From Halosimplex halophilum (GTDB lineage Archaea; Halobacteriota; Halobacteria; Halobacteriales; Haloarculaceae): a stretch of DNA of 64,000 nt. The position numbers were made by a program, and so were the translations under genes. A model generated the notes under the pieces. It saw only the letters and a program-made list of their open reading frames with translations. It made no database searches and was not told the origin of the DNA. Every line of letters begins with the position of its first letter. Positions within the stretch are counted from its first letter, which is position 1. Of this stretch, positions 21,095-55,048 are shown in pieces. The stretch lies in NCBI RefSeq assembly GCF_004698125.1, contig NZ_ML214298.1, positions 889,972 through 953,971 on the forward strand, given 5' to 3'.

Positions 21095-23008
21095 ATGCCC
21101 AGCCAGTACACCGTCGGCGTCGACGAGGTGACCGTCGACGACCCGTTCTGGTCGCCGTGGATCGAGCGCAACCGCGAGGTGACCATCGAGTACCAGTACG
21201 AGCAACTGGAGGAGTCGGGGACCCTGGAGAACTTCCGCCGGGCCATCGACGGGAAGTCGGGCGGCTTCCAGGGGATGTGGTTCCAGGACAGCGACGCCTA
21301 CAAGTGGCTCGAGGCGGCGAGCTACGAGCTCGCGAAGGCCGACGACCCCGACCTGCGCGAGCGGGTCGACGAGGTGATCGACCTGGTCGCCCGCGCCCAG
21401 GAGGACTCGGGCTACATCAACACGTACTTCCAGCTCGTCGAGCCCGACAACCGGTGGACGAACCTCAACATCATGCACGAGCTGTACTGCGCCGGCCACC
21501 TGATCGAGGCGGCCGTCGCCCACCACGAGGCCACCGGCGAGACCTCCCTGCTCGACGTGGCCGTCGCCTTCGCCGACCACATCGACGACACGTTCGGCGA
21601 CGAGGTCGACGGCGTCCCCGGCCACGAGGGGATCGAACTCGCCCTGGTGCGGCTCTACCGCGTCACGGACGAGGAGCGATACCTCGACCGCGCGCAGTAC
21701 TTCGTCGGCCTCCGGGGCCACGACGACCGGCTGCAGTGGGAACTCGAACACTCCGACGAGATCGGCGGGGCCTCGTGGGACGACGGGGCGCTCATCCCAG
21801 CCGAGGGCGGCGGGAGCCTCCTGCTCGACGACGATGGCGAGTACGTCGGCACGTACGCCCAGGCGCAGGCCCCCGTCCGCGAGCAGGAGGCCGTTGAGGG
21901 CCACTCGGTGCGAGCGGCGTACCTCTACGCCGGCGTCGCCGACCTGCTCGCCGAGCGCGACGACGCGGAGCTGCGCGCGGCGCTGGACCGGCTGTGGGCC
22001 AACATGACCGAGAAGCGGATGTACGTCACCGGCGGGATCGGGTCGGCCCACCGACACGAGGGGTTCACCGAGGACTACGACCTGCCCAACAAGTCGGCCT
22101 ACGCCGAGACCTGCGCCGCCGTCGGGAGCGTCTTCTGGACCCAGCGGCTGTTCGAACTCGACCCCGACCCCGCCTACGCCGACCTGGTCGAGCGCACGCT
22201 GTACAACGGCTTCCTCGCCGGCGTCGGGATGGACGGCGAGGAGTTCTTCTACGTCAACCCCCTCGCCAGCGACGGCGACCACCACCGCAGCGGCTGGTTC
22301 ACCTGCGCCTGCTGTCCGCCCAACGCCGCCCGGCTGTTCGCCTCGCTGGGCCAGTACGTCTACTCGACGGCCGGCGGCGAGCTGTACGTCACCCAGTACG
22401 TCGGCAGCCACCTCTCGACGACGGTCGACGGGACCGCCGTCGAACTCGACCAGGAGAGCGCCCTCCCGTGGGACGGCGCGGTGACGCTCGATATCGAGGC
22501 CGACGGGACGGTCCCGGTCACCCTCCGGATCCCCGAGTGGGCCGGCGAGGCGACGGTCACCGTCGACGGCGAGAAAGTCGACCACGACGGGTCCGGGTTC
22601 GTCCGGCTGGAGCGCGACTGGGACGGCGAACGGGTCGAGCTGACCCTGGAGCAGGAGGCCGAGTTCGTCGCGGCCCACCCCGCGGTCGAGGCCGACGCCG
22701 GCCGGCTGGCCGTCGAGCGCGGCCCGCTGGTCTACTGCGCCGAGGCCGTCGACAACGAGCGGCCGCTGCACCACTACGCCGTCGACGAGACCGGGGCGAT
22801 CGAGGCGAGCCACGACGCCGACCGGCTCGGCGGCGTGACCGTCCTCGAAGCGGACGCGACGGTGCCGGACCTCGACGGGTGGGACGGGGAACTGTATCGC
22901 CCGGTGGGTGAAACCGACCGGGAGAAAACGGGTCTCGAACTGGTCCCGTACTACGCCTGGGACAACCGCGCCCCGGGCGCGATGGCGGTCTGGCACCGCC
23001 GGGCCTGA
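21095..23008 (+). CDS. Beta-L-arabinofuranosidase, GH127 family
   Basis: The 637-residue protein follows the GH127 layout of an N-terminal (alpha/alpha)6 barrel and C-terminal beta-sandwich modules. The zinc/thiol active site known from the bifidobacterial enzyme HypBA1 can be read: Glu338 and Cys340 in a YAETC motif, and Cys404, Cys406, Cys407 in an FTCACC motif. In this family one cysteine acts as nucleophile held by Zn2+. Substrates are terminal beta-L-arabinofuranosyl residues, as in plant extensins and some pectins. No signal peptide is present, so it should work in the cytoplasm on imported glycans. A TTATG box lies about 30 nt upstream. The last 15 codons are part of a 45-bp tandem repeat that continues past the stop. 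Confidence 0.9.
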   Translation: MPSQYTVGVDEVTVDDPFWSPWIERNREVTIEYQYEQLEESGTLENFRRAIDGKSGGFQGMWFQDSDAYKWLEAASYELAKADDPDLRERVDEVIDLVARAQEDSGYINTYFQLVEPDNRWTNLNIMHELYCAGHLIEAAVAHHEATGETSLLDVAVAFADHIDDTFGDEVDGVPGHEGIELALVRLYRVTDEERYLDRAQYFVGLRGHDDRLQWELEHSDEIGGASWDDGALIPAEGGGSLLLDDDGEYVGTYAQAQAPVREQEAVEGHSVRAAYLYAGVADLLAERDDAELRAALDRLWANMTEKRMYVTGGIGSAHRHEGFTEDYDLPNKSAYAETCAAVGSVFWTQRLFELDPDPAYADLVERTLYNGFLAGVGMDGEEFFYVNPLASDGDHHRSGWFTCACCPPNAARLFASLGQYVYSTAGGELYVTQYVGSHLSTTVDGTAVELDQESALPWDGAVTLDIEADGTVPVTLRIPEWAGEATVTVDGEKVDHDGSGFVRLERDWDGERVELTLEQEAEFVAAHPAVEADAGRLAVERGPLVYCAEAVDNERPLHHYAVDETGAIEASHDADRLGGVTVLEADATVPDLDGWDGELYRPVGETDREKTGLELVPYYAWDNRAPGAMAVWHRRA

Positions 23009-23113
23009 ACCCGCGCCCCGGGCGCGATGGCGGTCTGGCACCGCCGGGCCTGAACCCGCGCCCCGGGCGCGATGGCGGTCTGGCACCGCCGGGCCTGAAC
23101 CCGCGCCCCGGGA
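22966..23113 (+). repeat. 45-bp tandem repeat (3.2 copies) spanning the GH127 stop codon
   Basis: Near-identical 45-bp units begin at 22966, 23011 and 23056, with a partial one at 23101. The first unit encodes the last residues of GH127 (NRAPGAMAVWHRRA) and its stop. The others lie downstream. Because the unit is a multiple of three, each copy restates the same frame and its own stop. Recent slippage duplication is likely. Confidence 0.95.
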
Positions 23114-49624: not shown

Positions 49625-50971
49625 TCACTCGACGTAGGTGTACTTGCGCTCGCCCATCCGGCCCCACCCGTCGAAGACGAACTCGGAGTCGGGCGTGGTG
49701 AACTGGTCCACGTCGGAGGCGCCGGCGTCGGCGTCGTGGTTGTGCACGTCGTGGACGTCCTCGTACTCCTCGAAGCTCAGCTCGTAGCGGGCGGCCAGCT
49801 GGTCGTCCACGTCGAGCGCCTCGATCTCCGCCGCCCAGCCCGGCTGGACGGTCTCGGCGTGGATCTCCGCCTGGGCGCCCGACCCGTAGGAACCCACGAG
49901 CAGCCGCTCGCCGGTCAGGTCGGCGCCGTCCTCGTAGGCGGCCTTCAGCCCGGACAGGCGGGCGAGGTGGACCGAGCCGGTGTACCAGTTGCCGACCTCG
50001 CGGGAGATCGTCAGGGTGGGCTCGACGGTCTCGGCGTACCACTCGCGGTAGGTGTCGGTGTCGGTCAGCTCGTCGGTGTAGTCGGCGGCGGCCTCGCGGA
50101 ACGCCTCCTCGCTGTCGAACGCCTCGCGGCGGGGCTGGCGGCCGATCTCGCCGGCCAGTTCCTCCTCGATCTCGGTGTCGCGGCTGACGTGGCGGAAGGC
50201 GAGCGCGGCGGCCTTGCGGACCATCCCCGGGAACGGGGTGTGGAAGGGGATCAGCGCCGCGTCGTCGGGGTGGATCTCCCCCGCGACGGACTCGAAGTCC
50301 TCGACGGCTTCCCGCATCCGCGCGAGGTACACCTGCACCGAGCGCTTGCCGTCGACGCTCGGGAACTGCTGCTGGGGCTTGAGGAAGTCCGTCTCGTCGG
50401 CGCTGCCGTAGCCCTGCTCCGCGGAGAGTTCGACCAGGTCGGGGTCCTCGCTGACCAGCAGCGCGACCGCGCCCGCGCCCTGCGTGGCCTCGCCGGGGTC
50501 GTCGCGGGCGTACAGCGCGGTGTCGGTGGCGATCACCAGCGCCGAGCGGCCGCGGTTGCGGCCCGCGCGGATCCAGTTGTACGCGTCGTCGAGGCTCTGG
50601 GTGCCCGAGATGCAGGCGAACTTCCGCTCGCCCTTGTTGGCGTGGTGGAAGTCGCCGTCGTAGACCTGTTCGAGACAGCCGGCGATGTACGTCGAGACCG
50701 GCTTGGAGTTGTCGAACGCCGACTCCGTCGCCACGTCGATCCGGCCGATGTCCTCGGGTTCGAGCCCCTTGCGCTCCATCAGGTCGTGGGCCGCGTTGGC
50801 CCCCATCGTCACGATGTCCTCGTAGACGTCCGGGAACGAACTGGCGGTCAGGCCGAGCCCCTTCGTGTACTTCCCCGGGTCGTCGCCCTGCGCCGGCGCG
50901 AACGTCTCCGGCAGGTCCAGCCTGAGCTTCCCCGTCCGGATCTCGACGGCGTCGATACCGACCGATGTCAT
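49625..50971 (-). CDS. hmgB: Hydroxymethylglutaryl-CoA synthase
   Basis: The 448-residue enzyme condenses acetyl-CoA and acetoacetyl-CoA to HMG-CoA for the mevalonate route to archaeal lipids. Catalytic residues are visible in order: a glutamate in VATESAFDNSKP, the acyl-accepting cysteine in FACISGTQ, and a histidine in IPFHTPFPGM. ATG 50971 gives the usual MTSVGIDAVE N-terminus. An in-frame ATG three codons upstream (50980) is less likely. The length is typical of the eukaryote/haloarchaea-type enzyme. Confidence 0.95.
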   Translation of the reverse strand: MTSVGIDAVEIRTGKLRLDLPETFAPAQGDDPGKYTKGLGLTASSFPDVYEDIVTMGANAAHDLMERKGLEPEDIGRIDVATESAFDNSKPVSTYIAGCLEQVYDGDFHHANKGERKFACISGTQSLDDAYNWIRAGRNRGRSALVIATDTALYARDDPGEATQGAGAVALLVSEDPDLVELSAEQGYGSADETDFLKPQQQFPSVDGKRSVQVYLARMREAVEDFESVAGEIHPDDAALIPFHTPFPGMVRKAAALAFRHVSRDTEIEEELAGEIGRQPRREAFDSEEAFREAAADYTDELTDTDTYREWYAETVEPTLTISREVGNWYTGSVHLARLSGLKAAYEDGADLTGERLLVGSYGSGAQAEIHAETVQPGWAAEIEALDVDDQLAARYELSFEEYEDVHDVHNHDADAGASDVDQFTTPDSEFVFDGWGRMGERKYTYVE

Positions 50972-51057
50972 AGGCCCCACTTGCGCGCGACTCGTATAAG
51001 GGCCTGTCGACTAGCGTATCGACGAGCGTCGAACGCAGTGTGGACGGAGAGCGCGAG

Positions 51058-53946
51058 TCACGGAGCGCCGTCGACGACGCTGCCGCGGTCGGGGGTTCCG
51101 TCGACTTCGACCCGGTCGACGTTGTAGAGTTCGCCGTTGTTGCCGTTGGTGTTGCCGACGTAGAACTCCGCGTCCTGGACGAACAGGTCGGCACCACTCG
51201 TGTCGGCCCCGTAGGCAAGCAGGTTCCCGCTGGAGGTCGTCGCCATGACCGTCCGCTCGACGACCATGTCGCCCGTCGTCGCGCGGAGGACGATATCGCT
51301 GCCGTCGCCGTTGCCGTTCTGGTAGTTGTTCAGCGACCCGTCGGACAGGTCCAGCGTCGACCCCTCGACCTCGATGGCGCTGGCCGAGTCCAGCGCCGCG
51401 TTCGTCCCGGTGACCGCGTCCGACCCGGTGACCGTCAGCGAGCCGTACCCGTTGCCGTTCTGGTAGTTGTTCAGCGTCGCGCCCGAGATGTCGACCGCCG
51501 TGCCCGCGAGGTCGACGTCGTTGGCCGACGCGACCAGGCTCCCGCTCCCCGCGACGCTCCCCGAGGCGTCGACCGTCAGCGTCCCGAACCCGTTGCCGTT
51601 CTGGTAGTTGTTCAGCGTCGCGTCCGTGACGTCGATATCCGACCCCGAGAGCGACACGTCGCCGGCGGCCGCGACCGTCGACCCGGCGGCGTTCACGTCG
51701 CCGCCGGTCGCCGCGACGGTCAGCGGCCGCCCGTCGCCGTTCCCGTTCTGGAAGTTGTCCAGCGAGGCGCCCGACACGTCGACGCTCGCGCCCGTCACGT
51801 CGAGGGTCCCCGGCGTGTCGAGGGTCGCGCCCGTCGCGGCGACGGACCCGGACCCCGAGACCGACAGCGACCCGAACCCGTTGCCGTTCACGAACCCGTC
51901 GAGGACCGCGTTCGAGAGGTCCACGTTCGACCCCGTCACCGACAGGTCGTTGGCCGTGACAGCGGTGAACCCCGCCGCGCTCACGTCGCCGCCGGTCGCC
52001 GCGACGGTCAGCGGCCGCCCGTCGGCGTTCCCGCTCCGGTAGTTGTCGGCGGTCGCGCCGGTCACGTCGACGCTCGCGCCGCGGAGTTCGAGGTCGCCCG
52101 TCGAGTCGAAGCGCCGGTCCGGGGCGGTGAGCGCCCCGTTCCCGGCGTCCAGCAGGACATCGTCGCCGGTCACGTCGACGCCGACGCGGATCCCGTCGGC
52201 GTTCCAGTCGACGGTCCCCGCGTCGATGGCGCCCGTGCTCTCCGGGACGACCAGCCCGTTGCCGTCCGCGGCGGTGTAGCTCCCCGACACGTCGGCCTTC
52301 GTCAGCGCGATGTCGGTCCCCTCCTGGTAGCGGCCGTCCTGGTTGACGTCCTCGTAGGGGAAGCCGGGGTCGCGCTCGCCGGTCATGTTCGTCACCGTCA
52401 CGTTCAGCACGTCGCTCGCGCCGCCGGCGGTCGCGTACAATCTGACCGTCCCCTCGTTTTTCGCCTCGAAGGTCGTCGCCACCTCGCCGTTCGCGTCGGT
52501 CGTCCCCCGGTACGTCGACAGCTCCCCGACCGTTCCGTTGTTGAGCGCGAACCCGACCGCCGCCCGGTCGACCGCCGTCGGGGCCACGTCGCCGCGGGCG
52601 TCGGTCAGCGCCGCCCGGACGTCGAACTCGCTGCCGGCCGCGGCCACGTCGAGCGTGTAGTCCGGACCGGTCGTCGGCGCCTCGAACCGCAGCTCGTAGG
52701 GGGAGGCGCCGCCGCCCCCGCCGACGCCACCGCCGCCCGTCTCCCGGACGTTGACCGTCATCCCCACGTCCTCCGGGTCGCCCGCGGCGAACGCCGGCTC
52801 CGTCGCGTCCTCGTAGCTGAACTGCAGCGAGTAACTGTCCCCGCCGGCGTCGTCCCCGGCGGCGTACACGAACTGCGCGCGGCCGTCCGAGCCGGTGGTG
52901 ACCGAGCCGTCCTCGAACGTCCCGCCCGCGGCGACGCCGCTCACGGTCACCCCCGGGACCGGGTTGTTGTACGCGTCGCGCACCTCGACGGTCACCTGCG
53001 TCGACCCGCCCTCCGGCACCGCCGACCCGTTGCCGTCCACTTCAGTCATGTACGCGGCGGACGTGCCGGTCACGCGCGTCCCGACACCGGCTTTCGCCAT
53101 CCGCAGCTCGTACGTGCCGGGACGCAGGTCGATCGCCAGCGTCCGGTACCCCTCGACCGCCAGCGGGCTCGTCCGCACGCCGGTCACGTTCCCGCCCTCG
53201 GCCGCGAACTCGCCGGCCAGCAGCTCCTCCCAGGTCGACTCCGGTAACCGCGTCGCGGTCCGGACGGTGATCGGGTCGCCCGACGCCCGGTTGGTCACCG
53301 CGACCGTCGTGCTGGAGGCGCTCACCGGTCGTACGTCGACCGACGCCGCGTCCGACGACGACCGCTGTAGCGACCCGTTCAGCGCCACCAGCGAGACGGT
53401 CGACCCGTCGACCATGGTCTGGCCGCTGCGGGCCAGCGTCGCCCCCTCGAAGGTGAAGTTGTCGTACAGCACCGTCGAATCGTAGACCGTCCGCGGCGGC
53501 TGGCCGTACTCGTTGTACCGCGGTCGGTAGACGACCGACCCCGTCGAGTAGGTCCGCGGCGACCCGCCGGCCTCCCAGAAGTCGTCCGTCTCCTCGTCCA
53601 GCGCTTCGACGTTCGCCAGCGAGAACGACACGTCCCCGTCGGCGGTCCCCGCCGTCGACAGTGACCCCGACACCGGCGGCGGGTTCACCGCGAGCACCCG
53701 CGAGGGGTAGGTCGTCCCCAGCTGGACCGACACCGCGCGGCTCGCCGACTCGCCGAACGTCGACACCACCGCGTTCCGCAGGTCCAGCAGGTCCGCCTGC
53801 ACCTGCTGGCTGTGGTCGAACTCGACCCGCTCGTTTTGCTGTGGGACGACCGTCGCCTGGTACAGCGACAGCAGGAGGATCAGCGCCGCGAACAGGAGCA
53901 CGGCTCCGATCTGGATGGACTGGCCCCTGTCGTCCCACGGCTCCAT
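51058..53946 (-). CDS. Large pilin-like-anchored surface protein with 47-residue repeats
   Basis: The 962-residue protein begins DDRGQSIQIGAVLLFAALIL, a charged stretch then a hydrophobic helix as in archaeal type IV pilin-like proteins. A globular region follows (about residues 40-310). Next come a Big-type Ig domain (about 310-400, VRDAYNNPVPGVTVSG), a glycine linker, and a second Ig-like domain (about 420-530). An EF-hand/dockerin-like DVNQDGRYQEGTD loop lies near 545. A repeat region (about 595-920) has six copies of a 47-residue unit with an N-x-x-N-G-N-G motif at about 641, 688, 735, 782, 829 and 876. The repeats look like a beta-solenoid. It is probably exposed at the cell surface. Function unknown. 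Confidence 0.8.
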   Translation of the reverse strand: MEPWDDRGQSIQIGAVLLFAALILLLSLYQATVVPQQNERVEFDHSQQVQADLLDLRNAVVSTFGESASRAVSVQLGTTYPSRVLAVNPPPVSGSLSTAGTADGDVSFSLANVEALDEETDDFWEAGGSPRTYSTGSVVYRPRYNEYGQPPRTVYDSTVLYDNFTFEGATLARSGQTMVDGSTVSLVALNGSLQRSSSDAASVDVRPVSASSTTVAVTNRASGDPITVRTATRLPESTWEELLAGEFAAEGGNVTGVRTSPLAVEGYRTLAIDLRPGTYELRMAKAGVGTRVTGTSAAYMTEVDGNGSAVPEGGSTQVTVEVRDAYNNPVPGVTVSGVAAGGTFEDGSVTTGSDGRAQFVYAAGDDAGGDSYSLQFSYEDATEPAFAAGDPEDVGMTVNVRETGGGGVGGGGGASPYELRFEAPTTGPDYTLDVAAAGSEFDVRAALTDARGDVAPTAVDRAAVGFALNNGTVGELSTYRGTTDANGEVATTFEAKNEGTVRLYATAGGASDVLNVTVTNMTGERDPGFPYEDVNQDGRYQEGTDIALTKADVSGSYTAADGNGLVVPESTGAIDAGTVDWNADGIRVGVDVTGDDVLLDAGNGALTAPDRRFDSTGDLELRGASVDVTGATADNYRSGNADGRPLTVAATGGDVSAAGFTAVTANDLSVTGSNVDLSNAVLDGFVNGNGFGSLSVSGSGSVAATGATLDTPGTLDVTGASVDVSGASLDNFQNGNGDGRPLTVAATGGDVNAAGSTVAAAGDVSLSGSDIDVTDATLNNYQNGNGFGTLTVDASGSVAGSGSLVASANDVDLAGTAVDISGATLNNYQNGNGYGSLTVTGSDAVTGTNAALDSASAIEVEGSTLDLSDGSLNNYQNGNGDGSDIVLRATTGDMVVERTVMATTSSGNLLAYGADTSGADLFVQDAEFYVGNTNGNNGELYNVDRVEVDGTPDRGSVVDGAP
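51310..52080 (-). repeat. 141-bp tandem repeats encoding a beta-solenoid-like array
   Basis: The DNA motif TTGCCGTTCTGGTAGTTGTT starts at 51311, 51452 and 51593, exactly 141 bp apart, with more diverged units beyond to about 52050. Repeats keep reading frame and encode alternating V/L-x strand patterns between Asn-Gly turns. Confidence 0.9.
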
Positions 53947-54049: not shown

Positions 54050-54631
54050 CTACTCGTCGTCCTCTTCGACGACTTCGGGGTCTTTCATCGCCGTCTGGAG
54101 GCTGTCGAGCCCGTTGACCCACTGGACGACCAGCCCGGGTTCGACCTCCTCGGCGATGGAGGGGTCGAACTCCGCGCCGTCGATGACCAGCGTCCCCGCC
54201 TGGACGCAGTAGGACAGCGCCGTGTCCAGGTCCTCCTCGGCCTCGGCGTCGGCCGCGGCGCCGACGTACTCGCCGATCTCGGCGTCCTCGGCGGTGCCGC
54301 CGACGACGAACTCCTCGGCGGCGTAGAACACGCAGACCAGCGAGGTCTGGACGCTGTCGACCAGCATCAGCGCCTCCTCGTCGTCGAACGCCGGCTCGGC
54401 GAGGACGACCTCGCGCATGTCCTCGATCTCCGAGAGGGCCTCGTCCTCGTCGAGGATGCCCTCCTCGAAGTCGGAGACGACCTTGACCACGGCGATGGCC
54501 GTGTCGTCCTGCATGTTCCACAGCAGCTGCGCCGTGTCGTCGTCCTCCGGGTCCAGGTCCTCCTCGTCGATCCTGTCCAGCCAGTTCTGCCAGCGTTCGG
54601 GCGTGTAGTACTCCCCCGGCTGATTGCTCAT
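54050..54631 (-). CDS. DUF2150 family protein
   Basis: The 193-residue acidic protein begins GEYYTPERWQNWLDRI, the hallmark of the archaeal DUF2150 family, and is helical throughout. Function is unknown. The start at 54631 is supported by a CCATATGA element (reverse strand, about 54653-54661) roughly 25-30 nt upstream. A long stem-loop lies just beyond that promoter. Confidence 0.88.
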   Translation of the reverse strand: MSNQPGEYYTPERWQNWLDRIDEEDLDPEDDDTAQLLWNMQDDTAIAVVKVVSDFEEGILDEDEALSEIEDMREVVLAEPAFDDEEALMLVDSVQTSLVCVFYAAEEFVVGGTAEDAEIGEYVGAAADAEAEEDLDTALSYCVQAGTLVIDGAEFDPSIAEEVEPGLVVQWVNGLDSLQTAMKDPEVVEEDDE

Positions 54632-54743: not shown

Positions 54744-54907
54744 CGAAAAAAGCCGGACGACTCGGTCGCTTCGCTCCCTCGCGTCCGGGGAACCGGCGCC
54801 ACGGCGCCGGACGTTCGGGAACCGCCGCTTCGGCGAGCCTGCCCTTCCCCGGGTCGCGCGGCCCGCGCCGATGCGCGGGCACGCGCTCCCGGCCACCGCA
54901 CCACGGC

Positions 54908-55048
54908 CGCAACCGCACCGCTCTGCACCGCTCCGCAACCGCACCGCTCCGCAACCGCACCGCTCTGCACCGCTCCGCAGCCGCACCGCTCTGCACCGCT
55001 CCGCAGCCGCACCGCGGCCGCAACCGCACCGCTCTGCACCGCTCCGCG
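54908..55048. repeat. Imperfect 26-bp tandem repeats, noncoding
   Basis: Units of CGCAACCGCACCGCTCTGCACCGCTC and shortened 16-bp forms follow each other about six times. The 455-bp spacer 54632-55086 therefore holds a promoter, the stem-loop, several GC-rich short hairpins and this array, but no gene. The core words (CCGCAACCGCAC, GCACCGC) also occur in the noncoding repeats beside the pirin gene. Confidence 0.8.

Follow-up and report, generated by a model that had tools for sequence, protein, structure and literature searches.

A probable modular pilin with an exchangeable ectodomain at a conserved haloarchaeal locus

The gene at positions 51058 to 53946 of the window (the whole 64,000-nucleotide stretch of Halosimplex halophilum DNA that was analysed) probably encodes a modular minor pilin, likely to sit at the pilus tip, whose exchangeable ectodomain acts as an adhesin or recognition module. 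The arguments for a modular pilin are a prepilin motif, a long helix and a head in the AlphaFold2 (AF2) model, homologues linked to PilB and PilC, adjacent second pilins, a fixed locus at which tails are exchanged, binding-type tails in relatives and a confidently predicted solenoid. The arguments against a modular tip pilin are the missing Pilin_N match of the window protein, transmembrane-like ends in three Halosimplex relatives, a window locus that has neither a second pilin nor nearby assembly genes, and the failure of Foldseek to find a significant match for the solenoid. A preliminary description, made from the sequence, had proposed a novel mix of parts. The mix is not a one-off: its first half appears to be part of an old pilin family. 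More interesting than the mix is that the tail is exchangeable while the locus stays fixed.

Domain layout and the pilin family

The 962-residue protein of the preliminary description is encoded by one minus-strand frame that starts with an ATG at 53946 and has a stop ending at 51058. The gene is present as a single copy in its own genome. It and its conserved neighbours are arranged as follows.

51058-53946, minus strand: putative modular pilin gene, an open frame of 962 codons plus stop
53764-53946, minus strand: residues 1-61, class III signal-type N-terminus and long N-terminal helix (motif and AF2)
53077-53763, minus strand: residues 62-290, beta-rich pilin head, the conserved family part (AF2; phylum-wide homologues)
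52735-53076, minus strand: residues 291-404, Ig-like domain 1 (Big_1), the last conserved part before the swap region (Pfam)
52699-52734, minus strand: residues 405-416, glycine-rich linker (sequence; AF2 pLDDT <50 at 405-413)
52381-52698, minus strand: residues 417-522, Ig-like domain 2, found in many relatives, not all
52159-52380, minus strand: residues 523-596, solenoid entry region with DxNxDG (DVNQDG, 533-538)
51301-52158, minus strand: residues 597-882, six solenoid repeats of 47 or 49 residues, a GN[GA]-type loop ending each
51061-51300, minus strand: residues 883-962, last solenoid strands and C-terminal cap (AF2; alignment with other solenoid tails)
54050-54589, minus strand: DUF2150 gene, conserved upstream neighbour (Pfam; synteny)
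49625-50980, minus strand: HMG-CoA synthase gene, conserved downstream neighbour, gap 77 bp (Pfam; synteny)

The N-terminus reads DDR-G/QSIQIGAVLLFAALILLLSLY (DDRG/QS, the slash marking the predicted cut after R7-G8) and is followed by a hydrophobic stretch, which fits the archaeal prepilin motif. Position -1 before the hydrophobic domain holds glycine, one of the two residues (G or A) suited to prepilin peptidase. The motif R[GA][QV][STA] is present in 79 of 80 relatives, and R-[GA]-[QV]-[STA] followed by x-Q-[IV]-G is nearly invariant across them. It resembles the archaeal pilin sites RAVS, RAQI and KGQV, which have been studied experimentally (PMC4371748). The AF2 model of residues 1-530, built with 31 relatives, has a pLDDT of 87.8 and consists of a single helix (6-61) and a beta head reaching to about residue 290, with pLDDT mostly above 90 in the helix and in the strands up to 290. 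A long N-terminal helix joined to a beta-rich head is the architecture of an archaeal type IV pilin. In architecture and sequence the window protein therefore has the features of an archaeal pilin, the Pilin_N match excepted, and the type IV pilin-like N-terminus proposed earlier is supported.

Pfam Pilin_N (PF07790) has no match in the window protein; among relatives it matches weakly in 2 of 32 and, again weakly, in one PilB-PilC-linked homologue. Since Pilin_N represents a single branch of the archaeal pilins and others need not match it, the pilin reading rests on the other features. In the Pfam scan of the protein Big_1 is over cut-off in two stretches, with nothing else above cut-off, and AF2 places two Ig-like beta domains at about 297-401 and 417-519, in agreement with the two Ig-like domains described before. 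An NCBIfam scan of the protein gave nothing, and searching the PDB by sequence yielded no convincing relative, either of the whole protein or of the solenoid. With the N-terminal half as query, Foldseek returned so many Ig and macroglobulin matches that the search is uninformative on the pilin head. N-X-S/T sequons are confined to the head and the Ig part, leaving the solenoid without N-glycan sites.

Judged by sequence comparison, the N-terminal 300 or so residues and the first Ig domain appear to form a widespread, old euryarchaeal pilin family. Relatives of the protein occur in 48 of 59 near genomes, most of them matching the first 300-520 residues, and weaker homologues of the N-core are found throughout the phylum. 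Sixteen loci outside Halobacteria were chosen by E-value, without regard to gene context; in seven the homologue lies beside or between PilB and PilC, and Pfam confirms T2SSE and T2SSF in both of the PilB-PilC-linked loci checked. All six non-haloarchaeal homologues scanned by Pfam contain Big_1, some just under cut-off, and one has DUF7289 over cut-off. Adjacency to PilB and PilC, a feature of archaeal type IV pilins, is seen in these homologues; in the window genome PilB and PilC are encoded elsewhere. The organism has a PibD-type peptidase gene. PilB and PilC are matched together at four of its loci, and Pilin_N exceeds its cut-off twelve times; none of these matches lies beside the modular pilin gene. 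The PilA pilins of H. volcanii are likewise encoded in trans (PMC4858521).

The locus and its exchanged tails

The locus sample comprised 80 haloarchaeal loci in named records, one genome being sampled per species, and neighbours were sought in the fetched flank. DUF2150 and/or HMG-CoA synthase was found at 74 of the 80 loci, and both at 59; these counts depend on reading frames called in the raw sequence. A contig end or a frameshift truncates some of the tails, as at loci L102 and L170. At 13 haloarchaeal loci a second gene with a class III signal lies on the same strand between the modular pilin and HMG-CoA synthase. Of ten second genes tested, eight score above the cut-off of Pilin_N, and the majority of those scanned have PKD, PA14, Ig-like or other tails. 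At the window locus, where the gap is only 77 bp, neither a second pilin nor any neighbouring assembly gene is present. Second pilin-type genes, on the strand of the modular pilin gene, are found at the following positions.

L101, 2709-3185: second pilin-type gene
L103, 8463-8921: second pilin-type gene
L105, 9298-11097: second pilin-type gene
L108, 8064-9935: second pilin-type gene
L109, 7998-9383: second pilin-type gene
L112, 8514-8978: second pilin-type gene
L122, 7693-9357: second pilin-type gene
L165, 7681-10008: second pilin-type gene
L169, 7676-9718: second pilin-type gene

Several second pilins have long variable tails (PKD, PA14, fn3), and the tail of L165 resembles the window solenoid. 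One strain of Halospeciosus flavus carries the locus, HMG-CoA synthase and DUF2150 included, on its chromosome and in two copies on a plasmid of 87 kb (L133, L134, L135). The gene of Haloferax sulfurifontis (L170, 5638-8655) is split by a stop or frameshift, its second ORF matching the C-terminal portion of the intact protein from H. massiliensis at 99.7% identity. In the window a gene for CheF, the archaeal chemotaxis-archaellum adaptor (PF04283; 47830-48744, plus strand), lies two genes from the pilin and adjoins endonuclease III. A dense GC-rich tandem array with units of 16, 26 and 42 bp (54895-55047) is situated just past the start of the DUF2150 gene, and a perfect 45-bp tandem repeat of 3.3 copies (100% match) is situated at 22966-23112.

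The N-core has a length of 295 +/- 6 residues and the remainder one of 490 +/- 213. Comparison of the loci indicates that lineages exchange the whole part of the protein beyond Ig domain 1. The window and its congener at L032 (Halosimplex) share 95% identity in HMG-CoA synthase and 86% in the N-core, and past Ig domain 1 there is no detectable similarity. Between the window and Halorussus halobius (L132), the corresponding identities are 74% and 48%, and 99% of the window tail is covered; a solenoid tail of the window type thus stands at the same locus in a distant Halorussus. Among 65 locus pairs in which HMG-CoA synthase is at least 90% identical, the tail past Ig1 is less than 35% shared in 19 and at least 70% shared in 27. 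To account for the five loci with the window solenoid type, the HMG-CoA synthase tree requires five changes, at least four of them forced by well supported branches, and the loci are as scattered on it as shuffled labels. This distribution fits repeated exchange, the alternative being an old polymorphism with many losses. The tails of other relatives match PKD, PA14, CARDB, FG-GAP, LTD or cellulose-binding-protein domain. BLAST matches of the tail obtained with uncorrected composition were compositional and were discarded.

In three Halosimplex orthologs (L097, L098 and L032) the C-terminus is a transmembrane-like segment with basic residues after it, which sets them apart from the other 75 tails. 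Such ends fit poorly with a free pilus tip.

It may be, and we suggest this tentatively, that the site is a haloarchaeal cassette site, a conserved pilin gene in which the ectodomain past Ig1 has repeatedly been replaced, across genera, by unrelated modules; in some cases a second pilin with a variable tail adjoins it. Each lineage would thereby have a differently tipped pilus, of use in choosing substrates, recognising kin or escaping viruses.

The repeat solenoid

The tail had been described as an NGNG solenoid of six repeats of exactly 141 bp. The repeat finder does find six copies, but their start-to-start spacings are 141, 141, 147, 141 and 147 bp, and NGNG is present in five of the six loops, the first, degenerate copy having RSGNADG. 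The loops at residues 635, 684, 731, 780, 827 and 874 read, in order, NYRSGNADG, GFVNGNGFG, NFQNGNGDG, NYQNGNGFG, NYQNGNGYG and NYQNGNGDG. Anchored on the loops, the spacings are 49, 47, 49, 47 and 47 residues, and the solenoid has a higher-order period of 96 residues (288 bp). The self-identity of 0.33 at lag 47 and 0.41 at lag 96 exceeds the shuffle maximum of 0.196 (all lags, 1000 shuffles), showing that the periodicity is not due to chance.

The AF2 model of residues 523-962, built on six aligned sequences (the window protein and five relatives), has a pLDDT of 89.5 and a pTM of 0.88 and contains short strands in a regular array. The repeat loops are coil breaks and the least confident part of the model. 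A Foldseek search against PDB and viral structures gave no significant match, only solenoid neighbours; the best PDB neighbours, themselves non-significant, are for the most part solenoid or beta-helix proteins (hemopexin-binding protein, phage tailspikes, PL6 lyases, EtpA, pertactin). The strand array and these neighbours together suggest a beta-solenoid, most likely a right-handed beta-helix. Because the neighbours are non-significant, no function is taken from them. The regular array expected by the preliminary description is thus confidently predicted as a beta-solenoid and disorder is not predicted, while surface location with pilin-type anchoring is supported by the N-terminal motif, the AF2 model and the PilB-PilC-linked homologues. 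Neither a disordered repeat nor a cytoplasmic location, the two outcomes that had been named as counting against the description, was therefore encountered.

The DxNxDG loop at the solenoid root (DVNQDG, 533-538) is the sole Ca2+-like motif of the protein and recurs in related solenoid tails. The Asn-Gly loops match no known Ca2+ or sugar binding motif, and the earlier suggestion that they bind either is speculation. RTX Ca2+-binding repeats are tandem nonapeptides, GGxGxDxUx. They were rejected here, since the nonapeptide is absent, there is one GNG-type loop per 47-49 residues and Pfam gives no RTX match.

Also rejected was a solenoid unique to the window genome. Close versions occur in two Halorussus and looser ones in Halomicrococcus and others, and the number of loops varies from six in the window protein to five and ten in the two Halorussus. 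Paralogous pilins elsewhere (L095, 6045-8096; L056, 5157-7505) have loop-less versions of the beta-solenoid tail, suggesting that the solenoid module travels between pilin genes.

Proposed function and relation to known systems

The precursor of the modular pilin would be inserted by Sec and cleaved by PibD after R7-G8, and its helix would then enter a type IV pilus built by the PilB-PilC machinery encoded elsewhere in the genome. The bulky Ig-Ig-solenoid ectodomain would be displayed at or near the pilus tip, beyond the S-layer, ligand recognition being the likeliest role of the exchangeable part. The solenoid would present a row of six similar loops, each repeat contributing one, at intervals of about 1 nm if there are two rungs per repeat. 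Such a row would lend itself to the multivalent binding of a polymer or surface with a repetitive structure. Tip position and ligand binding are proposed by analogy with Streptococcus sanguinis PilB; an adhesin role of the window protein is, again by analogy, plausible.

A different reading is that of a pilin-like protein outside any filament, trimmed by PibD or not, which as a single membrane-anchored stalk carries the binding domain through the S-layer. The ectodomain is very large, some relatives have the C-terminal transmembrane-like segment, and adjacent assembly genes are lacking in haloarchaea. This reading is nevertheless unlikely in view of the homologues beside PilB-PilC, the adjacent Pilin_N genes and the conserved cleavage motif; in H. 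volcanii, too, there are other pilins encoded in trans (PMC4858521). That the solenoid is a stalk-displayed enzyme, a polysaccharide lyase or hydrolase, is very improbable: PL6 alginate lyases, polygalacturonases and phage depolymerases are among the weak Foldseek neighbours, but every match is non-significant, Pfam finds no enzyme family in the window protein, and the repeats are regular with glycine loops.

Another possible use of the tail, already suggested for VARTIG and for polymorphic systems, is kin discrimination, inter-strain contact or virus-receptor variation in place of surface attachment. Such a diversifying recognition module is favoured by the single locus at which conserved cores bear unrelated tails, by the scattered position of the solenoid tail on the host tree, where four or more changes are forced, and by the adjacent second variable pilin in 13 loci. 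We consider it unlikely, however, as no immunity gene or silent tail cassette was found, about as many close pairs retain one tail, and the tail modules found are ordinary binding domains.

The modular pilins of bacteria, such as PilB and PilC of S. sanguinis, have an N-terminal pilin module onto which a larger non-pilin module is grafted; many different modules are used across species, and a tip position has been proposed (PMC8179133). The window protein likewise has an extra, non-pilus-specific part, the Big_1 domains and solenoid, grafted after a pilin head, with other tails in relatives. It differs in its archaeal PibD-type motif, its head, the Ig stalk and the beta-solenoid, and its family differs in occupying a conserved chromosomal locus with exchanged tails; binding is here a prediction. 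Similar by description is arCOG02911, the signature minor pilin common to euryarchaeal type IV pilus systems that is FlaFind-positive, all-beta, of variable length (250-550 aa) and duplication-prone, with which the N-core homologues beside PilB-PilC agree. The window protein, in contrast, has 962 aa, and its family shows locus conservation and tail exchange, which are not mentioned for arCOG02911 in the part of the source used (PMC4858521).

VARTIG proteins of Thermococcales are large Ig-domain surface proteins with a conserved N-terminal and a recombining variable C-terminal part; they are arCOG07710 proteins followed by a set of variable downstream genes, and no counterpart was found by the authors outside Thermococcales (PMC8416519). 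The window family shares the Ig domains and the conserved N-terminal and variable C-terminal parts, but it exchanges whole unrelated domains and its N-terminus is a pilin. The gene organisation is also different, the haloarchaeal HMG-CoA synthase following directly or after one extra pilin. The Ig part resembles invasin and intimin in its Big_1 match and, structurally, the domains of InvE and intimin; there is no outer-membrane barrel, and the type of stalk domain is all that is common. The solenoid is repetitive and predicted to be surface exposed like the beta-helix adhesins (hemopexin-binding protein, EtpA, pertactin), its best though weak structural neighbours, from which it differs in having no significant structural or sequence match and in secretion and anchoring.

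The literature searched, whose coverage was incomplete, contained no description of the haloarchaeal locus, the tail exchange or the solenoid, nor of the Haloferax ortholog near mvaB (HVO_2419), and novelty is stated with that caution. The family provides a haloarchaeal parallel to the VARTIG proteins of Thermococcales. It names, in most haloarchaeal genomes, a candidate gene for the subunit that sets the binding specificity of archaeal pili, and its conserved base, fixed locus and naturally exchanged outer domains make pilus specificity directly testable.
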